A DNA stretch of 56,303 nt from Candidatus Iainarchaeum sp. GTDB lineage: Archaea > Iainarchaeota > Iainarchaeia > Iainarchaeales > GCA-2688035. Both the position numbers and the translations under genes were made by a program. Every line of letters starts with the position of its first letter. The first letter of the stretch is position 1. Positions 36,519 through 55,749 of this stretch are shown here, in pieces. The stretch covers positions 1 to 56,303 of the forward strand of contig JAFCCO010000007.1 of NCBI GenBank assembly GCA_017610175.1. Reading direction: 5' to 3'. The notes beneath the pieces are model-generated. The model made no database searches. It was not told the DNA's origin and saw only the letters and a program-made list of their open reading frames with translations.

Positions 36519-38280
36519 AAATTGCTTTAATTTCTACTAATGAACGTTTAATTGAACATGGATTTAGAACTATTTCTTCCATTTTACGTAATAATGGTTT
36601 TGAAACTATTATGGTTTTTATGCCAACAGGAAATAGATATTCTCTTTCTTTTTATTCCAAAGATAATTTAGAAGAATTGTTTAAGTTAGTTAAAGACTAT
36701 GACATGGTATGTTTATCTTGTATGAGTGGAACTTTTGAAAGGACCATTCAAGTTATCGACTTTCTAAAAACTAAAATGAATGCTTTTTTTGTTATAGGGG
36801 GGATTCATGCCACTTTAATGCCAGAAAATTGTATTAAACAAGTTGATGCAGTGGGGATTGGCGAATGTGAAGATGCGATAGTTGAGTTATGTAAACGAAT
36901 TGAAGGCAAACGTAGTTTTTATAAAACTAAAAATTTTTGGTTTAATAAAAAAGGCAAGATCATTAAAAACGATATTAGGCCATTGGTAAATAATCTTGAT
37001 TTATTACCTTTTCCAGATTATGAACTTGAACATCAGTTTATTTTAGATAAAAACAAGTTTGTTTGCGCAACTAATTTCTTTAAGGAGAATTTTTGGAAGC
37101 TTTATAATGGGCGAATTTTAATTCTTTCAGCCAGAGGATGTCCTTATAGTTGTACTTATTGTAGTAATAACTATTTGAATAAAATTTACAAAGGAAAGAG
37201 TTGTTCTGTTAGAAAAAAAAGTGTTGACGGCACTATTGCAGAATTAAAGTATTTAGTTAATAAGTTTCCTGAGACCGTTGAGGTTTTGATTGATGACGAT
37301 GTATTTCTTGTAAGAGATATTAAAGAAATAAAAGACTTTGCTAAAAAATATAAAAAAGAAATTGGCCTGCCTTTCAAATGCAATTGCACCCCCGTTGCAG
37401 TTTCAGAAAAAAAGATTGCTACATTAGTTGATGCAGGATTATCTAATTTAATTGTAGGGGTTCAATCTGGAAGTGAACGAGTAAATTTTGAAGTTTACAA
37501 ACGCTTTTTTTCAAAGAAATGCTTAGTCAATGCAATGAATATTTTAGCAAAGTTTCCAAAGTTACATGCTCATTTTGATGTAATTGTTTCCAATCCTTTT
37601 GAAACGCCAGAAGAATTGAAAGAAACTATTAACTTTTTTTATGGATTGAACTTTTCTTTTTCTTTATCTGTTTTTAATTTGATTTATTTTCCAAAAACTG
37701 AGTTAAGACAGAGAGTTATTGAAAAATTTGGCAAGGATTTTGAGAATAGAATTAATATTGAGTATTTTGATGATTTTTCTCATATTAAATATGATTTAGG
37801 TGACAAGTATCTAAATACCATTTTACGCTGTATGTCTGGAAAAGCCAACAAAAAGAAGATGGGTTGGTTACCTCGTTTTGTTATAAAGCCTTTAATTAGA
37901 TTGTACGATTCTCCGATTAAGTGGATTGGGTGGATTTATTTATATTCAACAATTTTGTTTAAGACTTTTATAAAACAAAGTTATTTTTATTTTATGCCAT
38001 TGTTTCCTCAACGCGTAAAGTCTTTAATTATTAATTTAGTTGTATCTAATAAAAAAACAAGAAAAATAAAAAAAGATGTGGTTGAAAAATGAACCTTAGG
38101 TTTAAATGTATTTTTATTGATTATTTAAGTTTTGCAACAGAGTTACTTATTGAGTGAACACTTTGTAGGTTTGGTTTAATATGTATATAACACAAAAGTT
38201 AATGCATTTAATTTCAGGTGGCTGGAAATATCGAAATGGCAAGATTGACAATTTTGCATCTACCTGCCACACAAAAAGAA
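36440..38280. other. AT-rich segment, probably horizontally acquired
   Basis: From about 36440 to 38280 the base use changes sharply. Codons end mostly in A or T (AAT, TTA, GAT, ATT), T-runs and A-runs are common, and the CTT/AAG/GCA-rich style of the neighbours disappears, returning inside the methyltransferase near 38285. The segment holds one radical SAM gene and the start of the methyltransferase. No transposase or terminal repeat is seen. The duplicated methyltransferase 5' ends at both edges suggest homologous recombination. The gap 38093-38180 holds only AT-rich leader with a TTTAAATG box. Confidence 0.65.
36515..38092 (+). CDS. B12-binding-domain radical SAM protein, AT-rich and probably foreign
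   Basis: 525 residues. KIALISTNERLIEHGFRTISS is a B12-binding-type start, VIGGIHATLMPENC the expected later part, and LSARGCPYSCTYCSNNYLNK the CxxxCxxC cluster motif; IVGVQSGSERVNFEVYKRF and VSNPFETPEELKET belong to the core. The C-terminal 100 residues are basic and aromatic (WIGWIYLYSTILFKTF), perhaps a membrane-contact region. Base use is far more AT-rich than in the flanking genes. It is only distantly like the other two B12-type radical SAM proteins. It lies between two methyltransferase 5' copies. Confidence 0.87.
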   Translation: MKIALISTNERLIEHGFRTISSILRNNGFETIMVFMPTGNRYSLSFYSKDNLEELFKLVKDYDMVCLSCMSGTFERTIQVIDFLKTKMNAFFVIGGIHATLMPENCIKQVDAVGIGECEDAIVELCKRIEGKRSFYKTKNFWFNKKGKIIKNDIRPLVNNLDLLPFPDYELEHQFILDKNKFVCATNFFKENFWKLYNGRILILSARGCPYSCTYCSNNYLNKIYKGKSCSVRKKSVDGTIAELKYLVNKFPETVEVLIDDDVFLVRDIKEIKDFAKKYKKEIGLPFKCNCTPVAVSEKKIATLVDAGLSNLIVGVQSGSERVNFEVYKRFFSKKCLVNAMNILAKFPKLHAHFDVIVSNPFETPEELKETINFFYGLNFSFSLSVFNLIYFPKTELRQRVIEKFGKDFENRINIEYFDDFSHIKYDLGDKYLNTILRCMSGKANKKKMGWLPRFVIKPLIRLYDSPIKWIGWIYLYSTILFKTFIKQSYFYFMPLFPQRVKSLIINLVVSNKKTRKIKKDVVEK

Positions 38281-46432: not shown

Positions 46433-47371
46433 TTACGTGTTCTTCTTAAACCAGTCAATCGTTATTTTCAGCCCGTCTTCCCAGTTTACCTTCGGTTCCC
46501 AGCCAAGCTGCTGCCTTGCAAGGGTGAGGTCCGGCTTTCTTCTGGTCGGGTCATCTTTGGGGAGAGGATTGTGCACAATTTTGCTCTTGCTGCCGCAGAA
46601 TTCAATTACCTTTTCCGCAAGCTGCAGAATTGTCATCTCAACCGGGTTCCCGATGTTTACAGGGTTTGTGTAAGAGGACGCCATCAGGGCAATTTGCCCA
46701 CGAATGTTGTCGTCAACGTAACAAAAGCTTCTTGTCTGGTCACCGTCCCCAAAAACGGTTATTGGCTCGTCCTTAAGCGCCTGCTTTACAAAGGTTGGAA
46801 TTACCCTCCCGTCATCAGGCCTCATTCTGGGGCCGAATGTGTTGAAAATTCTTGACATTCTGATGTCAATGTCGTGAACGCGATGATACGCCATTATCAA
46901 CGCCTCTGAAAACCTCTTGCTTTCGTCATAGCATGACCTTAGCCCGATTGGGTTAACGTTTCCCCAGTATGTTTCCTTCTGCGGGTGCTCCAGCGGGTCT
47001 CCGTAAACTTCGCTTGTCGAGGTCTGCAAAAACTTTGCCTTGTGCTTCAAAGCCAAGTCAAGCATGTTTTTTACACCGTAGCTTCCAGCCATAAGCGTTT
47101 CAATCGGAATCATTTGGTAGTCGATTGGAGAGGCAGGGCATGCGAGGTTGTAAATCTCATCCAGGTCATCTGAAATATCCAAGGGGCGTGTGATGTCGTG
47201 GTTCATGAAGGTAAACTTTTCGTTCTCCATAAATTCCTGAATGTTCTTTTCCTTCCCGGTTACAAGGCTGTCAACACAGATTACTCTTTCTCCCTGCTTC
47301 AGAAGCGTTTCAACCAAGTGCGATCCAAGAAAACCCGCACCACCTGTTACCACAATTGTTTTTTCACTCAT
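46433..47371 (-). CDS. uxs: UDP-glucuronate decarboxylase (UDP-xylose synthase)
   Basis: Converts UDP-glucuronate to UDP-xylose with bound NAD. TGGAGFLGSHL is the NAD loop; LACPASPIDYQ, TSTSEVYGDPLEHPQKETY (E121), GLRSCYDESKR (Y148, K152), NTFGPRMRPDDGRVIP and NPLPKDDPTRRKPD are the specific signatures of UXS enzymes. 312 residues, the soluble form. Last gene of the operon ugd-kinase-nucleotidyltransferase-uxs, whose earlier products supply UDP-glucuronate. ATGs and stops overlap by four bases with the gene upstream. Confidence 0.95.
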   Translation of the reverse strand: MSEKTIVVTGGAGFLGSHLVETLLKQGERVICVDSLVTGKEKNIQEFMENEKFTFMNHDITRPLDISDDLDEIYNLACPASPIDYQMIPIETLMAGSYGVKNMLDLALKHKAKFLQTSTSEVYGDPLEHPQKETYWGNVNPIGLRSCYDESKRFSEALIMAYHRVHDIDIRMSRIFNTFGPRMRPDDGRVIPTFVKQALKDEPITVFGDGDQTRSFCYVDDNIRGQIALMASSYTNPVNIGNPVEMTILQLAEKVIEFCGSKSKIVHNPLPKDDPTRRKPDLTLARQQLGWEPKVNWEDGLKITIDWFKKNT

Positions 47372-48108
47372 TCAAACCCGTCCTTTACCTCGTTGTACAT
47401 TTCCAAACTTCCTATATCAAACCATTTGTCTTCATCTTTCTCAAACACGAAACCGTAAACTTCCTCGTTCTTGTAAAGCCAGTCAACAAACTCACCTGTT
47501 TTGTCTGCCGAATTCCCCTCATCCAAATACTGCTTTAATTTTGGGACAACCTCTTTTGGGTAAAGATAAACTCCAATGCTGCAAACCGTGCCCTTGGGTT
47601 CAGGCGGCTTTTCAACAAAGCCAACAACGCGAAGGGACTCGTCAAGCTCCAGGTTTCCCATTTTCTTTGCCTGCTCCAGGCTGCCGCAATCATAAACCCC
47701 TATGATTGCTTTCTTCTTTTCCTTGAAGAGGCCAACCAAGTCGGAGAGTGCAAAAGTAAACAAATTGTCTGAGTTGACAATTATTACGTCGTCGTCAATC
47801 TTTTCCTGCGCAATCACAAACTGGATGTCCCCAATGCTTCCAAGCCGGTCTTCGTTGCTTGTTGTCCCGTCATTGATAACTTTCACAGGAACTTTGCATT
47901 CAAAAGTCTTAGCCCATTCCCTGAACTGTTCGAAGAACTTTGCGTTTGTTACGACAAAGATTTCGTCAACTTCCTGAATCGTAAGGATTCTGCCGATTAC
48001 GTACTCCATCATCGGCTTTCCACCCACTGAAAGCAAGCCCTTTGGCTTGTCTTTTGTTAAAGGGTACATTCTTGTCGCATAACCTGCTGCTGGAACAATC
48101 GCTTTCAT
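47368..48108 (-). CDS. Sugar-1-phosphate nucleotidyltransferase (UTP-type likely)
   Basis: AIVPAAGYATRMYPLTKDKPKGLLSVGGKPMM is an intact nucleotide loop with the catalytic Arg and Lys (PAAGxATR..PLT..KPKxLL); IIVNSDNLF gives the metal Asp; VGFVEKPPEPKG is the sugar-binding EKP. 246 residues. It sits between uxs and a glucuronokinase-like gene, so the natural guess is glucuronate-1-phosphate plus UTP giving UDP-glucuronate; this is inferred from context, not from residues. Confidence 0.88.
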   Translation of the reverse strand: MKAIVPAAGYATRMYPLTKDKPKGLLSVGGKPMMEYVIGRILTIQEVDEIFVVTNAKFFEQFREWAKTFECKVPVKVINDGTTSNEDRLGSIGDIQFVIAQEKIDDDVIIVNSDNLFTFALSDLVGLFKEKKKAIIGVYDCGSLEQAKKMGNLELDESLRVVGFVEKPPEPKGTVCSIGVYLYPKEVVPKLKQYLDEGNSADKTGEFVDWLYKNEEVYGFVFEKDEDKWFDIGSLEMYNEVKDGFE

Positions 48109-48116
48109 TCAATCAC

Positions 48117-49043
48117 CTACAAAATTATTTTTGGTTTAAAACAATAGAATTTCTCGCTTAACACATTAAAAGCATTTTCATTGTCGAAAAGCACCGCAAC
48201 AGCGCCTCCGCTTCCCGCAAATTTCGCCCCAAGAGCGCCTTCTTCCAAAGCGGTTTTTACAATCTCCAAATCGGTTTCGTTGACATTGAAGTGCTTTTTT
48301 CTGAACCCAAAGTTCTTGTTCATCAAGGAGCCAAACTTTTTCCAGTCGGAATCAAGCAATGCGTCCTTTCCCTCAATGCAAAGGCCTGCAACCTTGTCCA
48401 TCTCGTCCTTCACCCAGCCTTCGCCCCTCAAAAACCTGTTCCTCAAATCATTGTGCACAAGCGAGCTTTTTTTTGGAAGGCCACTGCAGGCAATAAAGAA
48501 GGGAACCTCTTTTACGTCCAGCTTTTCAACGCGCGCAAACGGGTCATCTTTTTTCAAAAACTCTTTTCCGGTAAAGTCCATGAATGCAATTCCCTGGTGG
48601 GAGATAATGTAACGGTCCTGCGGCCCGCATGCAATTCCCAACTCAAAGTTTTCAAGGTGCATTGCAATTTCCGCAACGTCGTTTTTGCTGAGCATTACAT
48701 TAAACTTTTTCTGGAATGCGCGGATTGTTGCGATTATTATTGCAGTACTTCCGGCAAGGCCTGATTCGCGCGGGATGTCTGAGTTGTACTCCACCTCAAA
48801 TTGTTTGTTTTGGAATCCAAGGTAATTAATGCATGCCTTAACCAAATCGTGCTTGCCGTTGTAGTGGGTGTTGTTTTTTTCAACACCGCCGTAATCTGAT
48901 TTCAGCACAAGTTCACTGCTTTCACGCATTGAAAGCTTTACTCCCTTGTCAATTGTGCAGCTTATTCCCTTGCCGCCGTATATGTCGCTTGGATTTCCAA
49001 GCAATCCAACCCTTGCAAAGGCCTGTGTTTCAACTGAATTCAT
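48117..49043 (-). CDS. GHMP kinase, glucuronokinase-like
   Basis: 308 residues. FARVGLLGNPSDIYGGKGISC is GHMP motif 1 and closely resembles the start of plant glucuronokinases as I remember them; IPRESGLAGSTAIIIATI is motif 2, the ATP loop (PxxxGLxGSxA); GAKFAGSGGAVAVL is motif 3. It would phosphorylate free glucuronate at C1. With the nucleotidyltransferase downstream this gives a salvage route to UDP-glucuronate beside the Ugd route. Galacturonate or arabinose as substrate is possible. Confidence 0.85.
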   Translation of the reverse strand: MNSVETQAFARVGLLGNPSDIYGGKGISCTIDKGVKLSMRESSELVLKSDYGGVEKNNTHYNGKHDLVKACINYLGFQNKQFEVEYNSDIPRESGLAGSTAIIIATIRAFQKKFNVMLSKNDVAEIAMHLENFELGIACGPQDRYIISHQGIAFMDFTGKEFLKKDDPFARVEKLDVKEVPFFIACSGLPKKSSLVHNDLRNRFLRGEGWVKDEMDKVAGLCIEGKDALLDSDWKKFGSLMNKNFGFRKKHFNVNETDLEIVKTALEEGALGAKFAGSGGAVAVLFDNENAFNVLSEKFYCFKPKIIL

Positions 49044-50332
49044 TTGCCTACTCCCTTGTAGATAAAGCCCTTTTCCTTAAGCTTGGCTTCATCAAAAAAG
49101 TTTCTTCCGTCTATTACAAACTTGCCTTTCATAAGTTCTTTAACCTTTTCGAAGTCAATTTCCCCAAACTCTTTCCACTCGGTGAGCAAAATCAGCGCTT
49201 CCGCGTCCTTCAGGGTTTCGTATATTGAATCGCATAATTCAATCTTGTCCCCAAAAATTTCTTTTGCGTTCTCCCTTGCCTGCGGGTCGTAGGCTGAAAC
49301 GCTTGCGCCCTCTAAAAGCAGGTTGTTGATTATGTCAATGCTTGGCGCAAACCTCATATCGTCCGTGTTTGGCTTGAATGCAAGCCCGAGAACAGCAACC
49401 TTCTTTCCCTTCAAAATCCACATGCTGCTCTCAATCTTTTTCACAAACGCTACCCTCTGCGCCCGATTAACGTTCTGCACCTCTTTCAAAATCGCAAAGT
49501 CGTACCCGTTCTTTTCGGAGAGTCTAACAAACGCATCCACATCCTTTGGGAAGCAAAAGCCACCGTAGCCAATTCCTGCGTTGAGAAAGCTTTTTCCAAT
49601 CCGATTGTCCAAACCCATCCCCTTTGCAACGTGCTCAATGTTTGCGCCTGTTTTCTCACAAACGTTTGCAACCGCATTAATGAATGATATTTTTGTTGCA
49701 AGGAAGCTGTTGCTTGCGTGCTTGATAATTTCAGCGCTCCTTATGTCTGTAAAGAGAATATTTTCGGTTAGGGGCTTGTAAATTTCCCTCATTGTGTTTC
49801 TTGCGTCCTCACTGTCGGTCCCAATAACTACCCGATCAGGGTTTGAAAAGTCCTCAATTGCGGAGCCCTCCCTCAAAAACTCGGGGTTGCTCACAACCTC
49901 AAACTTTACATTGTGGGGGTTGTAATGTTCAAGAACCTGCTTAATCTTCTCGCCTGTTTCAACCGGAACCGTGCTTTTTTCAACAACAATCTTTGTTTCG
50001 GTTGCAGCTTCTGCAATCCCGCGCGCAACATTTTCAACGTAACTCAAATCAGCTTCTCCGTTGTCTTTTGGGGGGGTTCCAACTGCAATAAAGATTACCT
50101 TGGATTTTTTGACGGCGTTAGCAAAATCGGTTGTAAATGACAGGCGTCCGGCTTTTGCATTTTTTTCAATAAGTTCCTCAATCCCCGGTTCGTAAATCGG
50201 TGAAATGCCCTGGTTGAGTTTCTCAATCTTGCTTTCGTCGATATCAACGCAGGTAACATTGTGCCCTACATCACTGAGGCACGCCCCGGTGACCAATCCC
50301 ACATAACCTGTTCCAATAACCGCTAAATCCAA
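49040..50332 (-). CDS. ugd: UDP-glucose 6-dehydrogenase
   Basis: Oxidises UDP-glucose to UDP-glucuronate. LAVIGTGYVGLVTGACLSDVG (NAD loop), PIYEPGIEELI, VGTPPKDNGEADLSYV, EKSTVPVETGEKI, NPEFLREGSAIEDF, ATKISFINAVANV, GIGYGGFCFPKDV (catalytic Cys in GGFCFPKD) and LGLAFKPNTDDMR are diagnostic of Ugd. 430 residues from TTG 50332, preceded by GGAGGGATTT, an excellent ribosome site; the frame's 44-residue upstream extension crosses the promoter and is rejected. First gene of the operon, divergent to the RHH fusion gene. Confidence 0.95.
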   Translation of the reverse strand: MDLAVIGTGYVGLVTGACLSDVGHNVTCVDIDESKIEKLNQGISPIYEPGIEELIEKNAKAGRLSFTTDFANAVKKSKVIFIAVGTPPKDNGEADLSYVENVARGIAEAATETKIVVEKSTVPVETGEKIKQVLEHYNPHNVKFEVVSNPEFLREGSAIEDFSNPDRVVIGTDSEDARNTMREIYKPLTENILFTDIRSAEIIKHASNSFLATKISFINAVANVCEKTGANIEHVAKGMGLDNRIGKSFLNAGIGYGGFCFPKDVDAFVRLSEKNGYDFAILKEVQNVNRAQRVAFVKKIESSMWILKGKKVAVLGLAFKPNTDDMRFAPSIDIINNLLLEGASVSAYDPQARENAKEIFGDKIELCDSIYETLKDAEALILLTEWKEFGEIDFEKVKELMKGKFVIDGRNFFDEAKLKEKGFIYKGVGK

Positions 50333-50373: not shown

Positions 50374-50413
50374 CTTTTAATATATGAATGAGTAATACAT
50401 AGTATGATAGTAT
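50374..50413. promoter_or_regulatory. Shared divergent TATA and repeat operator for ugd and RHH fusion gene
   Basis: CTTTTAATATATGAA (50374-50388) reads as a TATA box in both directions, for ugd on the left and the fusion gene on the right. TAGTAT-GA-TAGTAT (50400-50413) is a direct repeat with an 8-base period ending at the fusion gene ATG (50414), and ATAC-ATA-GTAT (50395-50405) is an inverted repeat overlapping it. Such short spaced repeats fit a ribbon-helix-helix operator. Binding here would block the start of the fusion gene. Confidence 0.55.
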
Positions 50414-51229
50414 ATGACACGCGAGAGAGTTACAATCACAATAAGGGGTGATTTGCTCAGGCAAGTTGACCGGCAGGTTGATGGATTAACCATCAGAAGC
50501 AGAAGCCAGGCAATTGAGTACCTTCTCAGCAAGTTTCTCAGCGATTTTCGCCTTGGAAAAGCGTTAATTCTTGCAGGTGGCAAGAGGAAGGATATTCTGA
50601 TTGGAAAGCAGCCGAAGTTTATTGCGGACATCAATGGAAAGCCATTGCTTGAAAGGGTAATGGATAGCATTAACGAGTTCAATGTCGCAAGCTTCCTCAT
50701 TTACACTGACAATTTTTCGGACAAAATAATTGATTCGCTCTCAGGAAAGCCTGTCCCCTACCACCTCGATTTTATCACAGGAAAGGAGCCAAGCGGGACA
50801 ATCCAGCCGATGATGCTTGCAAAAGGGCAGCTGAATGACACTTTCCTTCTGGCCTACGGCGACACAATAACAAACCTGAACATTAACGACATGCTTGCAT
50901 TCCACCGAAAAAACAATGCAATTGCAACAATCGCACTGACAACTGTAAGCAACCCGAAGGAGTTTGGTGTCGCAATGCTTCAGGGCGACAAGGTTGCCGA
51001 GTTCCAGCAAAAGCCAAAGAAGGAAGCGCACAGCTTTTTGGTCAATGCAGGATACTTCCTTTTCGAGCCGGAAATATTCAGGCACATTTCAAGGGACATG
51101 AAGAATTTGGAGCGCGACCTCCTTCCAAAACTTGCGCAGAAGGGCCTGCTTTTTGGATACACTTTCCACGGAAAATATTTTAACATAAACAGTGAAGAGG
51201 ATTTGAATAAAGCGCGCGCCCTACTCTAA
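50414..51229 (+). CDS. Ribbon-helix-helix DNA-binding domain fused to a degenerate sugar nucleotidyltransferase
   Basis: Residues 3-45 are a ribbon-helix-helix domain: strand RVTITIRGD, helix LLRQVDRQVDG, turn and helix IRSRSQAIEYLLSKFL. From 48 to 271 it is a nucleotidyltransferase-like GT-A domain: LAGG at 53-56, PKFIADINGKPLL, AYGDTIT (D150), NAGYFLFEPEIF. The loop that normally reads GxGTRLxPLT is replaced by GGKRKDILIG and shortened by about two residues, and the EKP motif is QKP, so catalysis is doubtful. It is divergent to the ugd operon with repeats at its start codon. I infer a repressor that senses a sugar nucleotide. It overlaps the end of the TIM-barrel gene by nine bases. Confidence 0.88.
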   Translation: MTRERVTITIRGDLLRQVDRQVDGLTIRSRSQAIEYLLSKFLSDFRLGKALILAGGKRKDILIGKQPKFIADINGKPLLERVMDSINEFNVASFLIYTDNFSDKIIDSLSGKPVPYHLDFITGKEPSGTIQPMMLAKGQLNDTFLLAYGDTITNLNINDMLAFHRKNNAIATIALTTVSNPKEFGVAMLQGDKVAEFQQKPKKEAHSFLVNAGYFLFEPEIFRHISRDMKNLERDLLPKLAQKGLLFGYTFHGKYFNINSEEDLNKARALL

Positions 51230-52081
51230 AGATTCAATGAACTGCTCAAGCCCTTTCTTTTCGCGCAGCACTTCGCTTTCCGAAACGTTTGTGCCGTGTT
51301 CAAAAATCAGGGGAAGTTCCTTCAAATGCCTTATCCCCCTCAGAATTGAAAAATCATACCCCTCCGGAAAGGCATGGTGGTCAGCCATCCCGTTAACCAT
51401 TTCCCCGCTGCTGTAGTGCACATGCATTTCACAGACCCTTGCCCTGAGATTCATCATCTCATTCAGGTTCCCGGCAAGCAGTGCATGCCCAAAGTCAAGC
51501 AGGAGCTTAATGTCTGGAAGCTCGTGGAAAATTTCCTTGAACGCATCCGCAGAATCAAGAACACATTCAACATGGCCTGACGGCATGTTTTCAATCGCAA
51601 AAGTTGCCCCTGAATTCGCTGCAAGCATTGTTCCGTAAACAAGAACCTCTTTTAGCCCGGCAATTGCCTTTTCCTTTTCAATTCGCTCACCAAACTCCAT
51701 TTTGCTAAAGCCGTGCGGTCCCTTTGCAAAGCCAAGCCTGAACGGAAAGCCGGGGTGGATTCCCACAACCTCTGCCTCAACAATTTCAGCAGCTCTGAAC
51801 ATCTCATCAAGGACACGCCTGTTCTGTTTTGTTAGCCCAAGTGCCGCATTGAACCAGAATCTTTCCTCCAACGGGGGAAACAGGCCGTGCACTGTGTAAT
51901 TCAAATCAGGAAAGTCGTGCTTGATTTTTTTGATTGTTTCCCACAAGCCTTTCTCAAATTTGTGTGCCGCCCCAAGCTCAACCTGCTTAAAGCCAAGTTC
52001 CCTTGCTTTCTCAACAGATTCATAAATTCCGATTCCGCGAGTCGCAAAATAACTGCTGCTTAATCCAACCTTTGAAGCCAT
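51221..52081 (-). CDS. Sugar phosphate isomerase/epimerase-like TIM-barrel protein (AP endonuclease 2 family)
   Basis: 286 residues. KVGLSSSYFATRGIGIYESVEKARELGFKQVELGA is the start of a xylose-isomerase-like barrel; VVGIHPGFPF, FAIENMPSG (Glu), LLLDFGHALLAG (Asp, His), MHVHYSSG and PLIFEHGTNVSESE (Glu) supply candidate metal ligands. ATG 52081 lies about seven bases past the expected transcription start set by the TATA box at 52117-52108, so the mRNA is almost leaderless; TTG 52090 is less likely. Substrate unknown, probably a sugar of this pathway. Confidence 0.8.
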   Translation of the reverse strand: MASKVGLSSSYFATRGIGIYESVEKARELGFKQVELGAAHKFEKGLWETIKKIKHDFPDLNYTVHGLFPPLEERFWFNAALGLTKQNRRVLDEMFRAAEIVEAEVVGIHPGFPFRLGFAKGPHGFSKMEFGERIEKEKAIAGLKEVLVYGTMLAANSGATFAIENMPSGHVECVLDSADAFKEIFHELPDIKLLLDFGHALLAGNLNEMMNLRARVCEMHVHYSSGEMVNGMADHHAFPEGYDFSILRGIRHLKELPLIFEHGTNVSESEVLREKKGLEQFIESLE

Positions 52082-52104
52082 GCCAATCAATTTGTGTAAC
52101 GGAT

Positions 52105-52146: not shown

Positions 52147-52875
52147 ATGACTATTGGAATCAAAAAAGCATTTATTCTCGCGGGTGGCGAGGGCACAAGG
52201 TTAAGGCCCATAACTTACGAAATGGCAAAGCCCCTTATTCCTGTTCGCGGAAAGCCTGTTTTGCAGTGGAACCTTGAACTCTGCGCAATGTACGGAGTGG
52301 AAGAGGTAATTATTGCAGTCGGCTACAAGCACGAGCAGATTGAGCAGGCATTCGGAGACGGTAAAAAGCTGGGCCTGAAAATTAAGTACAATGTTGAGGA
52401 GCAGTTCCTTGGAACCGCGGGAGCGCTCAAGTTTGCAGAGGAAGCCTTCAGGGGCGAAAAAAAGTTCATCATGATGAACGGGGACGAGTGCAAGGACATT
52501 GATTTTATTTCACTGGACAGAGTGTTTGAAAAAAATGATGCGGTTGCAGCAATCGCATTAACAGAGGTTGATTACATGGCCGCCGGTGGAATTGTCAAAG
52601 TTGACGGGGAAAAGGTCACTAACTTTGACGAAAAGCCTGTTGCAGAGGGGCAGGGGAAGAAAACAATCAACGCAGGCGCGTACATTCTTTCCCCAAGAAT
52701 TTTTGATTACATCATGCCTGGCGAAATGGTTTCAATCGAAAAAATCACATTTCCAATGCTTGTTAAAGAGGGCAAGGCATTTGCACTGCCCTGCGTAAGC
52801 CAATTTTTCCAGACTGACACCTTTGAAAGGTATGAAAACGCTATTTTTGGCTGGAAGGGCTTTGGAAGCATCTAA
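52147..52875 (+). CDS. Sugar-1-phosphate nucleotidyltransferase
   Basis: AFILAGGEGTRLRPITYEMAKPLIPVRGKPVLQW is the complete nucleotide loop with Arg and Lys; FLGTAGALKFAEE is a base-recognition loop; MMNGDECKD carries the metal Asp; VTNFDEKPVAEGQ the EKP motif; INAGAYILSPRIF follows. 242 residues, the short form without a left-handed-helix domain. Glucose-1-P, mannose-1-P and others are possible substrates. It is a good catalytic contrast to the degenerate domain encoded at 50414. ATG with a very short leader. Confidence 0.9.
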   Translation: MTIGIKKAFILAGGEGTRLRPITYEMAKPLIPVRGKPVLQWNLELCAMYGVEEVIIAVGYKHEQIEQAFGDGKKLGLKIKYNVEEQFLGTAGALKFAEEAFRGEKKFIMMNGDECKDIDFISLDRVFEKNDAVAAIALTEVDYMAAGGIVKVDGEKVTNFDEKPVAEGQGKKTINAGAYILSPRIFDYIMPGEMVSIEKITFPMLVKEGKAFALPCVSQFFQTDTFERYENAIFGWKGFGSI

Positions 52876-53497: not shown

Positions 53498-54028
53498 ATG
53501 AATCTCGACGAAAAAATCAGAACTGTCCCAAACTTCCCGAAAGAGGGAATAATGTTCAAGGACATCACAACACTGTTAAAAGATTCGGTTGCATTCAGGA
53601 ACGCGATTGACAGCATGGTAGAGCACTTCATGAAAAAAGACATGCACTTTGACAAGGTTGTAAGCACGGAAGCACGCGGATTCATCCTCGGCTCTGTTCT
53701 CGCCTACGAATTCCACGCAGGCTTTGTGCCATTGAGAAAACCGGGAAAGCTTCCGGCCGAAACAATAAAGCAGGAGTTTGAAACAGAATACTCAACAGAC
53801 GCTTTTGAGATTCACAAAGACGCGATTGAAGAGGGAGAAAGCGTCCTGATATGTGACGATTTGATTGCAACAGGCGGAACCCTAAAGGCAGGGGTTGACC
53901 TTGTTGAAAAGCTTGGCGGAAAAGTCAACGGAATCGCAGCCCTCGTTGAATTAACCTTCCTTAAAGGCAGGGACAAGGTAAAGGGTTACGATGTGTTTTC
54001 CCTGATAAAGTACGATGAAGAGAAATGA
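53498..54028 (+). CDS. apt: Adenine phosphoribosyltransferase
   Basis: Makes AMP from adenine and PRPP. IRTVPNFPKEGIMFKDITTLL is the Apt start signature; EARGFILG the adenine-side loop; LRKPGKLPAETI the flexible loop; and VLICDDLIATGGTL (D120, D121) the PRPP-binding motif. 176 residues, normal length. It is the first of three salvage genes: apt, a PfkB-type kinase and mtnP, in which mtnP releases the adenine that Apt recycles. Confidence 0.96.
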   Translation: MNLDEKIRTVPNFPKEGIMFKDITTLLKDSVAFRNAIDSMVEHFMKKDMHFDKVVSTEARGFILGSVLAYEFHAGFVPLRKPGKLPAETIKQEFETEYSTDAFEIHKDAIEEGESVLICDDLIATGGTLKAGVDLVEKLGGKVNGIAALVELTFLKGRDKVKGYDVFSLIKYDEEK

Positions 54029-54042
54029 TTTTTGGTGGGCAA

Positions 54043-54948
54043 ATGGTTAAGGCAGTAATTCTCGGATCAATCGCACTGGACTCCCTTGAGACACCGTTTG
54101 GCAAGGCGGAGAACGCACTTGGGGGAAGCGCAACATATGCTTCAACCGCGGCCTCGCTTTTTACAGATGTTGGAATAATCGGAATAGTTGGCCGGGATTT
54201 CCCCGAGGAACACGTAAAGTTTCTTGAAAGCAGGGGAATTGACCTCAAGGGAATGGAGAAGGCGGAGGGAAAAACCCTTTACTGGAAGGGCAAATACGGT
54301 TTTGACATCAACGCCCCGGAAACTCTTGACATTCAGCTCAACGTGCTTGCGGACTTCAAGCCAAAGGTGCCGGACGAGTACAAGGACGCTGACTTTTTGT
54401 TCCTTGGAAACCTTGACCCCTCAATTCAAAAATCGGTTCTAGAGCAGATGAACAAGCGCCCAAAGCTCGTTGTCTCAGACACAATGAATTTCTACATTGA
54501 AAAGGACCGCGAGGCGGTTCTCGAAATGGTTAAGCTCTCAGACATCGCCTTAATGAATGACGGGGAAGCAAGGCAACTCTTTAAGACAACAAACCTGATT
54601 AAGGCGGCGCGGGAAATTCTCAAGCTTGACTCAGGCCTTGCAATAATCAAAAAAGGAGAGCACGGGGCGGTTTTTCTTACAGAAAATGAATTCTTCTCGG
54701 CGCCGGGATACCCGCTTGAAAACGTCAGGGACCCGACAGGGGCGGGAGACAGCTTTGCAGGAACCCTTACAGGATACCTTGCAAAGACAGGTGACTTAAG
54801 CCCTGAAAACATCCGCAGGGCATTGATTTACGCTTCAAGCGTTGCAAGTTTCAATGCAGAGGGCTTCTCCCTCGAGAAGCTGAAGACCATTACCCTCGAG
54901 GACGTTGAAGCAAGATTTAATGAGTTCAAAAAAATTGTGCAGTTTTAG
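54043..54948 (+). CDS. PfkB-family carbohydrate/nucleoside kinase
   Basis: 301 residues. KAVILGSIALDSL is the family start; ENALGGSATYASTAASLF the substrate loop with GG; DPTGAGDSFAGTLTGYL the C-terminal signature with the catalytic Asp in GAGDSF. Ribokinase-fold enzymes phosphorylate sugars or nucleosides. Between apt and mtnP a nucleoside, adenosine or a pentose derived from methylthioribose is a fair guess. ATG 54043 follows GGTGGG; the ATG at 54025, overlapping the apt stop, is the alternative start. Confidence 0.92.
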   Translation: MVKAVILGSIALDSLETPFGKAENALGGSATYASTAASLFTDVGIIGIVGRDFPEEHVKFLESRGIDLKGMEKAEGKTLYWKGKYGFDINAPETLDIQLNVLADFKPKVPDEYKDADFLFLGNLDPSIQKSVLEQMNKRPKLVVSDTMNFYIEKDREAVLEMVKLSDIALMNDGEARQLFKTTNLIKAAREILKLDSGLAIIKKGEHGAVFLTENEFFSAPGYPLENVRDPTGAGDSFAGTLTGYLAKTGDLSPENIRRALIYASSVASFNAEGFSLEKLKTITLEDVEARFNEFKKIVQF

Positions 54949-54957
54949 GTGATTGAA

Positions 54958-55749
54958 ATGATTGGAATAATCGGCGGCTCAGGCCTTGAGGACCCAAAAA
55001 TTCTGAAGAATTCAGAGGAAATACTTGTTGAAACGCCTTACGGCAAAACAAGTTCCCCCCTTACAATTGGGGAAATTGCCGGCAAAAAGATTGCATTAAT
55101 CTCAAGGCACGGCAAAAAGCACGAAATCATGCCGTCAAACGTTAACAGCAGGGCAAACATCTGGGCTTTGAAAGAATTTGGTGTTAAGCAAGTTCTTGCA
55201 ACAACCGCGTGCGGTTCACTGCGCGAAGAAATAATGCCAGGCCAGATAGTTTTTCCAAAGCAGTTCATTGACTGGACAAGCAAGCGCTCAAGCACTTTCT
55301 TTGACAAGGGCAAGGTCTGCCACATCCCAATGGCCAACCCGTTCTGCCCAAAGCTAAGCGAATTGCTGTGCGAAACCGCAAAGAAGCTGAAAATTCCGCA
55401 CCACGACCACGGAACTGTTGTGACAATTGAGGGCCCGCGGTTCTCAACAAGGGCTGAATCGCACATGTTCAGGACAATTGGCGGGGACATAATAAATATG
55501 AGCACTGTTCCGGAGGTTGTTCTTGCGCGCGAGGCAGGAATGTGCTATCAGGCGATTGCCATGGCAACAGACTACGACTGCTGGAAAGAGAGCGAAAGCG
55601 TTGACATCTCAAAGGTTCTTGAAACATTCAAAAGCAATGTGGAGCGTGTAAAAAGGCTGCTTGTTGAGGCAATTCCAAAAATTGAATCAAAGGAATGCGC
55701 CTGCCAAAAGCACATTGATTCCTCAATAATTAACCTCAGCGAAGACTAA
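54958..55749 (+). CDS. mtnP: S-methyl-5'-thioadenosine phosphorylase
   Basis: Cleaves methylthioadenosine with phosphate to methylthioribose-1-phosphate and adenine. [81 protein letters not shown] and ATDYDCWK are diagnostic of the MTAP branch of PNP family II. 263 residues. AGGTGAT (54947-54953) selects ATG 54958. Its product adenine feeds the Apt encoded just upstream. Cysteines near the C-terminus (ECACQKH) recall the disulphides of hyperthermophile enzymes. Confidence 0.95.

Follow-up and report, generated by a model that had tools for sequence, protein, structure and literature searches.

A ribbon-helix-helix domain fused to a degenerate nucleotidyltransferase: a candidate nucleotide-sugar-sensing regulator in DPANN archaea

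The window analysed here is a stretch of 56,303 nucleotides from a Candidatus Iainarchaeum sp. whose genome assembly comprises 34 contigs and 1.24 Mb. It contains a single open frame in which a ribbon-helix-helix (RHH) domain is followed by a domain resembling NDP-sugar nucleotidyltransferases (NTases), flanked by genes of nucleotide-sugar metabolism (Table 1). At 51221-51229 the fusion gene shares its last 9 bases with the 3' end of the convergent TIM-barrel gene. Between the genes for UDP-glucose 6-dehydrogenase (ugd) and UDP-glucuronate decarboxylase (uxs) lie a GHMP kinase gene and then an NTase gene. By analogy with the glucuronokinase system of animals (PMC3938481), the two may form a salvage pair of sugar-1-kinase and pyrophosphorylase. 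After the sugar locus, at 53498-55749, phosphoribosyltransferase, PfkB-like kinase and nucleoside-phosphorylase-like genes were found, which recur beside the sugar locus in related genomes.

Table 1. Features of the fusion locus and of related RHH-NTase genes. Positions refer to the window unless a locus is named.
Feature	Position	Strand	Basis or remark
RHH-pseudonucleotidyltransferase fusion gene, 271 aa	50414..51229	+	single open frame; orthologues; alignment
RHH DNA-binding domain (predicted), residues 1-46	50414..50551	+	strand RVTITIR, then helices 12-21 and 30-44 in model
NDP-sugar nucleotidyltransferase-like domain, catalytically degenerate, residues 49-271	50558..51226	+	Pfam; model pLDDT mostly 90 or more; Foldseek
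Degraded NTP-binding loop, residues 57-67 (KRKDILIGKQP), replacing GxGxR..P	50582..50614	+	alignment
N257-I-N259 at the place of the second metal Asp of active relatives	51182..51190	+	Asn in 18/18 orthologues
UDP-glucose 6-dehydrogenase (ugd), divergent presumed target	49040..50332	-	TTG start after AGGAGG; strong match to UDP-glucose dehydrogenase structures
GHMP-family sugar kinase	48117..49043	-	Pfam
NDP-sugar nucleotidyltransferase, intact loop (ATR..PLT)	47368..48108	-	ORF and Pfam
UDP-glucuronate decarboxylase (UDP-xylose synthase, uxs)	46433..47371	-	UXS1 match, 6e-100
Xylose-isomerase-like TIM barrel (AP_endonuc_2), convergent neighbour in part of the family	51221..52090	-	
Stand-alone active-looking NTase	52147..52875	+	counterpart by position of the RHH-fused intact NTase in related genomes
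Predicted operator array: TATGA 50383-50387, TAATA 50393-50397, TATGA 50403-50407, TATGA 50413-50417	50383..50417	.	10-bp phase; last half-site holds the start codon
AT-rich TATA-like element (TTTTAATAT), preceded by purine-rich GGAAAG	50375..50383	.	18 bp upstream of the three-site operator; TATA-like hexamer in 16/17 loci
RHH + intact NTase	L041:12249-13088; L044:6896-7738; L017:1045-1887; L059; L018	L059: minus	

An earlier, sequence-only reading had described the 271-residue frame as an N-terminal RHH joined to an NTase domain, and had named, as one of two refutations, homologues in which the first 45 residues are not an RHH. The frame was as described. Scanned alone, the first 42 residues of the window protein matched RHH_1 weakly (E = 0.003), a match that falls short of the Pfam cut-off. 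The N-termini of 15 of 19 relatives matched RHH_1 (best 8e-7), the opposite of the refuting outcome, and a PDB profile search with the relatives' N-termini retrieved E. coli NikR (E = 3.7e-4) in a strand-to-strand alignment of RVTITI of the fusion with RVTITL of NikR. The relatives' matches and the NikR hit thus resolve the weak score of the single sequence. NikR presumably contacts its half-sites via Arg3, Thr5 and Thr7; the corresponding residues of the window protein are R5, T7 and T9. Both RHH helices were present in two single-chain models, one of the window protein and one of a Woesearchaeotal member. Confidence was low in the RHH part of both, as expected when an obligate-dimer fold is modelled as a lone chain. 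By sequence and model the N-terminus meets the beta-alpha-alpha pattern of RHH (MetJ/Arc/CopG) proteins, and DNA binding by the fusion protein is strongly supported on this basis, in the absence of binding data. A chance fusion or an assembly artefact was rejected in view of 18 full-length orthologues on independent contigs. The reading as an RHH antitoxin of a toxin-antitoxin pair was also set aside: the fusion is partnered with a sugar gene, and no toxin was seen as partner.

The remainder of the protein is assigned to the NDP-sugar nucleotidyltransferase fold by profile and by model. Pfam NTP_transferase (PF00483) matched residues 49-234 (E = 1.3e-18), the AlphaFold model (pLDDT 85) displayed this fold, and the nearest solved structures in Foldseek include GMPPA/GMPPB as top match, VTC1, glucose-1-phosphate cytidylyltransferase and HddC. 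The roles of the active-site motifs are established knowledge of RmlA-type enzymes. Residues were counted on one alignment of 18 orthologues, 39 Woesearchaeotal relatives and 31 stand-alone NTases. The loop Arg was present in all 31 stand-alone enzymes, in none of the 18 orthologues and in none of the 39 Woesearchaeotal relatives; a GxGxR loop with catalytic Arg is thus absent throughout the orthologue set. From the loop Gly to the Lys the fusion counts 13 residues versus 15, two fewer. The loop was the least conserved part of the orthologues, with a mean column identity of 0.40 against 0.81 in the RHH and 0.67 in the remainder, and it varied freely in sequence and length. The pair of metal-binding Asp residues is not intact either. 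The second metal Asp, found in 31/31 stand-alone NTases at one of two positions, was missing from all 18 orthologues and all 39 Woesearchaeotal relatives, and in the orthologues both candidate positions are Asn without exception. This C-terminal change from Asp to Asn had been overlooked before and is equally telling. Retained are the first metal Asp and the Lys of the EKP motif in all fusions, and the GT and NAG glycines in 18/18 orthologues. The Glu of EKP is replaced by Gln in 7/18; the sugar pocket is therefore not fully conserved and has diverged in detail. Judged from the alignment, the orthologues have lost the triphosphate-handling side of the site and retain a good part of the sugar-phosphate side. 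Loss of catalysis is strongly supported by these replacements; activity data are not at hand. The sequence-only reading had anticipated much of this: a degraded loop without Arg and about two residues shorter, a remaining site with D150 and the NAG segment, and three other NTases in the window that keep GTR, ATR or GSR together with PIT or PLT. These points were confirmed.

A protein-only scan of genome contigs gave nothing; an alignment-based scan succeeded. The orthologue set consists of 18 proteins from 18 genomes, the window protein included, all from the same Diapherotrites (Iainarchaeota) order. The 17 others share 47-72% identity with the window protein and are spread over several families of the order. 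One further, partial fusion copy was found at a contig end. In the G012 copy of the fusion (L008/L037) there is no ATG, GTG or TTG at the expected start, where ATA follows a TGA; this may reflect a sequencing error, an unusual start or a frameshift. The fusion is divergent to a UDP-glucose-dehydrogenase-type gene at each of the 17 loci whose contig extends to the neighbour, and every contig of sufficient length also has a UDP-glucuronate-decarboxylase-type gene further on. The genes in between vary, so the conserved unit is the pair of regulator and ugd.

The gap between these two genes, exactly the intergenic region that the earlier reading had named, contains a conserved, phased palindromic operator. 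The predicted motif TCATA-N5-TATGA-N5-TATGA was exact at 12/17 loci and present with no more than two mismatches at 17/17; 100 dinucleotide shuffles gave none. The prevailing distances between half-sites are 10, 20 and 30. The window's own site has one mismatch. When 75 genomes were searched allowing one mismatch, the genomes with an RHH-NTase yielded 19 sites, every one of them positioned at the 5' end of such a gene. A wide regulon is not indicated: at one mismatch the window's genome has no second site. An exact single pair at 37780 of the window was rejected as a site, being inside a gene and looking like chance. Start-codon bias was rejected as the full source of the third half-site, since the array persists in G008, G012, G014, G028 and G034, where the RHH start is further downstream; among these the third half-site is degraded only in G034. 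The phased half-sites fit an RHH dimer that inserts its strand into the major groove of DNA, with the reservation that groove insertion is inferred and only single chains were modelled.

In archaea the distance from the TATA element to the transcription start is about 25 bp. At 16/17 loci a TATA-like hexamer starts 16-19 bp ahead of the three-site operator, so that the operator would span the regulator gene's predicted start of transcription. This placement directly supports autoregulation of the fusion gene, on sequence grounds and without binding or expression data. Relative to ugd the array is upstream of the promoter, and the AT element is possibly shared by both genes. Because the array is upstream of ugd and over the regulator's own predicted start, the sign of ugd regulation remains open, be it repression, activation or none.

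Fusions of an RHH with an NTase domain were also found in about 40 genomes of Woesearchaeota/Nanoarchaeota, where the loop and the C-terminal metal site are gone altogether. All 23 proteins of this clade that were tested matched NTP_transferase, and the model of one has the same fold as the window protein. Most of these fusions stand divergent to an operon that encodes a SIS isomerase or a cupin, a PfkB kinase, a HAD phosphatase and a CTP_transf_like nucleotidyltransferase, with a GT9 heptosyltransferase nearby; from its gene content the operon is assigned to an ADP-heptose-type pathway. The sequence-only reading had placed the fusion divergent to ugd, kinase, nucleotidyltransferase and uxs, identities that are supported, and had asked whether the domain pair occurs elsewhere in archaea, always next to UDP-sugar genes. 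It does so at the visible Diapherotrites loci; the generalisation fails in the Woesearchaeotal clade with its mostly ADP-heptose-type neighbours. GTATGA-N5-TCATAC with both hexamers full occurs in 30/40 Woesearchaeotal upstream regions, while for a shorter core 0.06 occurrences were expected from shuffles. In the sugar operon, the site comes immediately after the TATA-like element and covers the predicted start. By its predicted placement this is a repressor's position, and the case for the sugar operon being repressed is stronger here than the case for repression of ugd in Diapherotrites. The strand residues of the Woesearchaeotal RHH are KIAIS, unlike RVTITI, yet the half-site is identical. 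Two near-identical Woesearchaeotal loci (L113 and L114) on two contigs of one assembly (ARS106) are probably an assembly duplicate.

In a tree of the NTase domains the Diapherotrites and Aenigmatarchaeal proteins formed one clade (support 99/99) and the Woesearchaeotal proteins another (100/100). Both are apart from the stand-alone enzymes, and the branch that would unite the two to the exclusion of all others has weak support (92/32). In a third set (L017, L041, L044, L059 and, separately, L018) the RHH is joined to an NTase whose loop and metal Asp are intact, in one case with Lys for Arg. These proteins cluster with the stand-alone enzymes and occupy the position of the window's downstream stand-alone NTase; in four genomes a site like TCATA-N5-TATGA-N5-TATGA precedes the gene. 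They are possible bifunctional enzyme-regulators. In the Aenigmarchaeal orthologue (L110:6001-6822) the loop has full length (GGNRKEMGALTKNIPRS) and the catalytic residues are replaced. On sequence evidence, the third set and this protein look like stages between enzyme and sensor. Another RHH-NTase (G026; L032:1498-2229 and L053:9198-9929) has a still shorter loop, no second metal Asp and a very long branch. Phage records contained NTase matches, none of which reached the RHH part.

We interpret the fusion protein as a one-component regulator with a dead NDP-sugar NTase as sensor which adjusts transcription of its own gene and of the adjacent nucleotide-sugar genes; we assign this reading a probability of roughly 0.7. 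RHH dimers would bind (G)TATGA half-sites, one helical turn apart, across the promoter of their own gene, in the gap between it and ugd. The pseudo-NTase would not use nucleoside triphosphates and probably still binds a nucleotide sugar or sugar-1-phosphate of the adjacent pathway. Ligand binding would alter how the RHH pairs are spaced or oriented, and the altered geometry would affect transcription of the regulator and of the adjacent sugar genes, i.e. ugd, kinase, NTase and uxs in the window and the ADP-heptose-type operon in most Woesearchaeota. The sequence supports the fusion, the loss of catalytic residues, the operator and the gene pairing. The earlier reading had likewise inferred a repressor that senses a sugar nucleotide or sugar phosphate; its interpretation is supported as regards the RHH and its operator, the catalytic decay and the divergent pairing. 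Without binding, expression or ligand data, the sensing itself, the identity of the ligand, the allosteric coupling and the sign of ugd regulation are inferred. So is the direction of the response, for which product-dependent repression is most likely; the protein would most likely be an autorepressor with feedback on nucleotide-sugar synthesis through its pseudo-NTase sensor.

Other explanations were weighed. The RHH may bind the operator while the dead NTase senses nothing, being a dimerisation platform or docking on the nearby active NTase (Table 1) as GMPPA does on GMPPB, so that regulation would track occupancy or level of the enzyme. In many genomes the active NTase gene is found beside the fusion or close to it, with direct adjacency in L063, L064 and L065, and the top fold match is GMPPA/GMPPB, GMPPA being a non-catalytic partner subunit. 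A scaffold, however, would not need the first metal Asp, the EKP Lys and the GT and NAG glycines that all 18 orthologues keep, and docking on an NTase of like fold cannot be general as most Woesearchaeotal sugar operons use the other, CTP_transf_like fold. We consider this explanation unlikely. A bifunctional trigger enzyme, in which a weakly active NTase or one with another reaction is coupled to transcription by the RHH, is clearly more doubtful. It would account for the retained first metal Asp and EKP Lys, and the sister group L017, L041, L044 and L059 combines RHH, intact loop and metal Asp with the same operator type. Against this, the loop Arg is absent and the second metal Asp replaced in 18/18 orthologues and 39/39 distant relatives, and the loop varies freely. 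Slightly less probable again is a ligand-independent autorepressor, or one with its true target elsewhere and a merely inherited gene order next to ugd: the operator does overlap the regulator's own predicted start and is the only site at up to one mismatch in its genome, but the ugd pairing persists across several families while neighbouring genes change, and the Woesearchaeotal site covers the sugar operon start, not the regulator's alone. The kept pocket residues, the fixed loss of catalysis and the second clade make all three less likely than a sensing pseudo-NTase, though none can be excluded without biochemistry.

If the sensor reading holds, nucleotide-sugar-sensing transcription factors of this kind may make up a DPANN-wide family. 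A single RHH-pseudoNTase architecture would have been re-paired across phyla with different operons, of UDP-xylose and ADP-heptose type, each member reading its own end product; the sister form with intact NTase, possibly bifunctional, would indicate the route from enzyme to sensor. We favour this wider view with less assurance than the reading of the single protein. In the open-licence full-text literature, subscription papers and preprints being outside the scope, no description was found of an RHH-nucleotidyltransferase regulator, its operator or its pairing with nucleotide-sugar operons in DPANN. Such a regulator is likely, not certainly, absent from the literature; its building blocks are of familiar types, and deriving sensors from enzymes is an established principle. 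For few DPANN regulators are a target, an operator and a likely ligand all predicted; the fusion offers all three, down to base pairs. How archaea control the supply of nucleotide sugars for their surface is little known. Related genomes allow the path from enzyme to sensor to be followed, with the RHH joined to an intact enzyme in L041 and its relatives, a loop in partial decay in L110 and a fully decayed site in the Woesearchaeotal clade. With small proteins and explicit operators the proposal is directly testable.

Known systems share parts of this design, and GMPPA and NrtR/AraR between them set a precedent for each step of the proposed mechanism. NikR, the nearest RHH of known structure, likewise has an N-terminal RHH, a separate C-terminal ligand domain and a palindromic operator with GTATGA/TCATAC hexamers, a half-site type which the fusion operators match. 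Its half-sites in E. coli are GTATGA-N16-TCATAC (PMC7055735), whereas the fusion operators have one helical turn (N5); its ligand domain is nickel-binding and ACT-like instead of NTP_transferase; and the targets of the fusion are nucleotide-sugar genes. NTases of the HddC, glucose-1-phosphate cytidylyltransferase and GMPPB type (NTP_transferase) have their fold in common with the fusion, and also most of the pocket on the sugar side. From these the fusion differs by loss of the catalytic loop and of the second metal ligand and by gain of the RHH. GMPPA, a non-catalytic GDP-mannose pyrophosphorylase paralogue, still binds GDP-mannose and gives feedback (PMC11228364). Like the fusion it is a degenerate NDP-sugar NTase, and its family is the top fold match; the fusion too has no catalytic residues and keeps part of the pocket, product binding being inferred. 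GMPPA, however, acts on a partner enzyme, not on DNA, is eukaryotic and has a left-handed beta-helix tail. In NrtR and AraR, inactive Nudix domains fused to DNA-binding domains are ligand sensors (PMC4666351). There, as here, the sensor derives from a nucleotide-handling enzyme without its catalytic motif and adjoins the genes of its pathway. The pair of Nudix-like domain and winged HTH is not present in the window protein according to Pfam; enzyme fold, DNA-binding domain and pathway are all different, and the fusion is archaeal. Only the logic is similar. As Nudix did in NrtR, the NDP-sugar nucleotidyltransferase fold would join the enzymes that were turned into transcriptional sensors.
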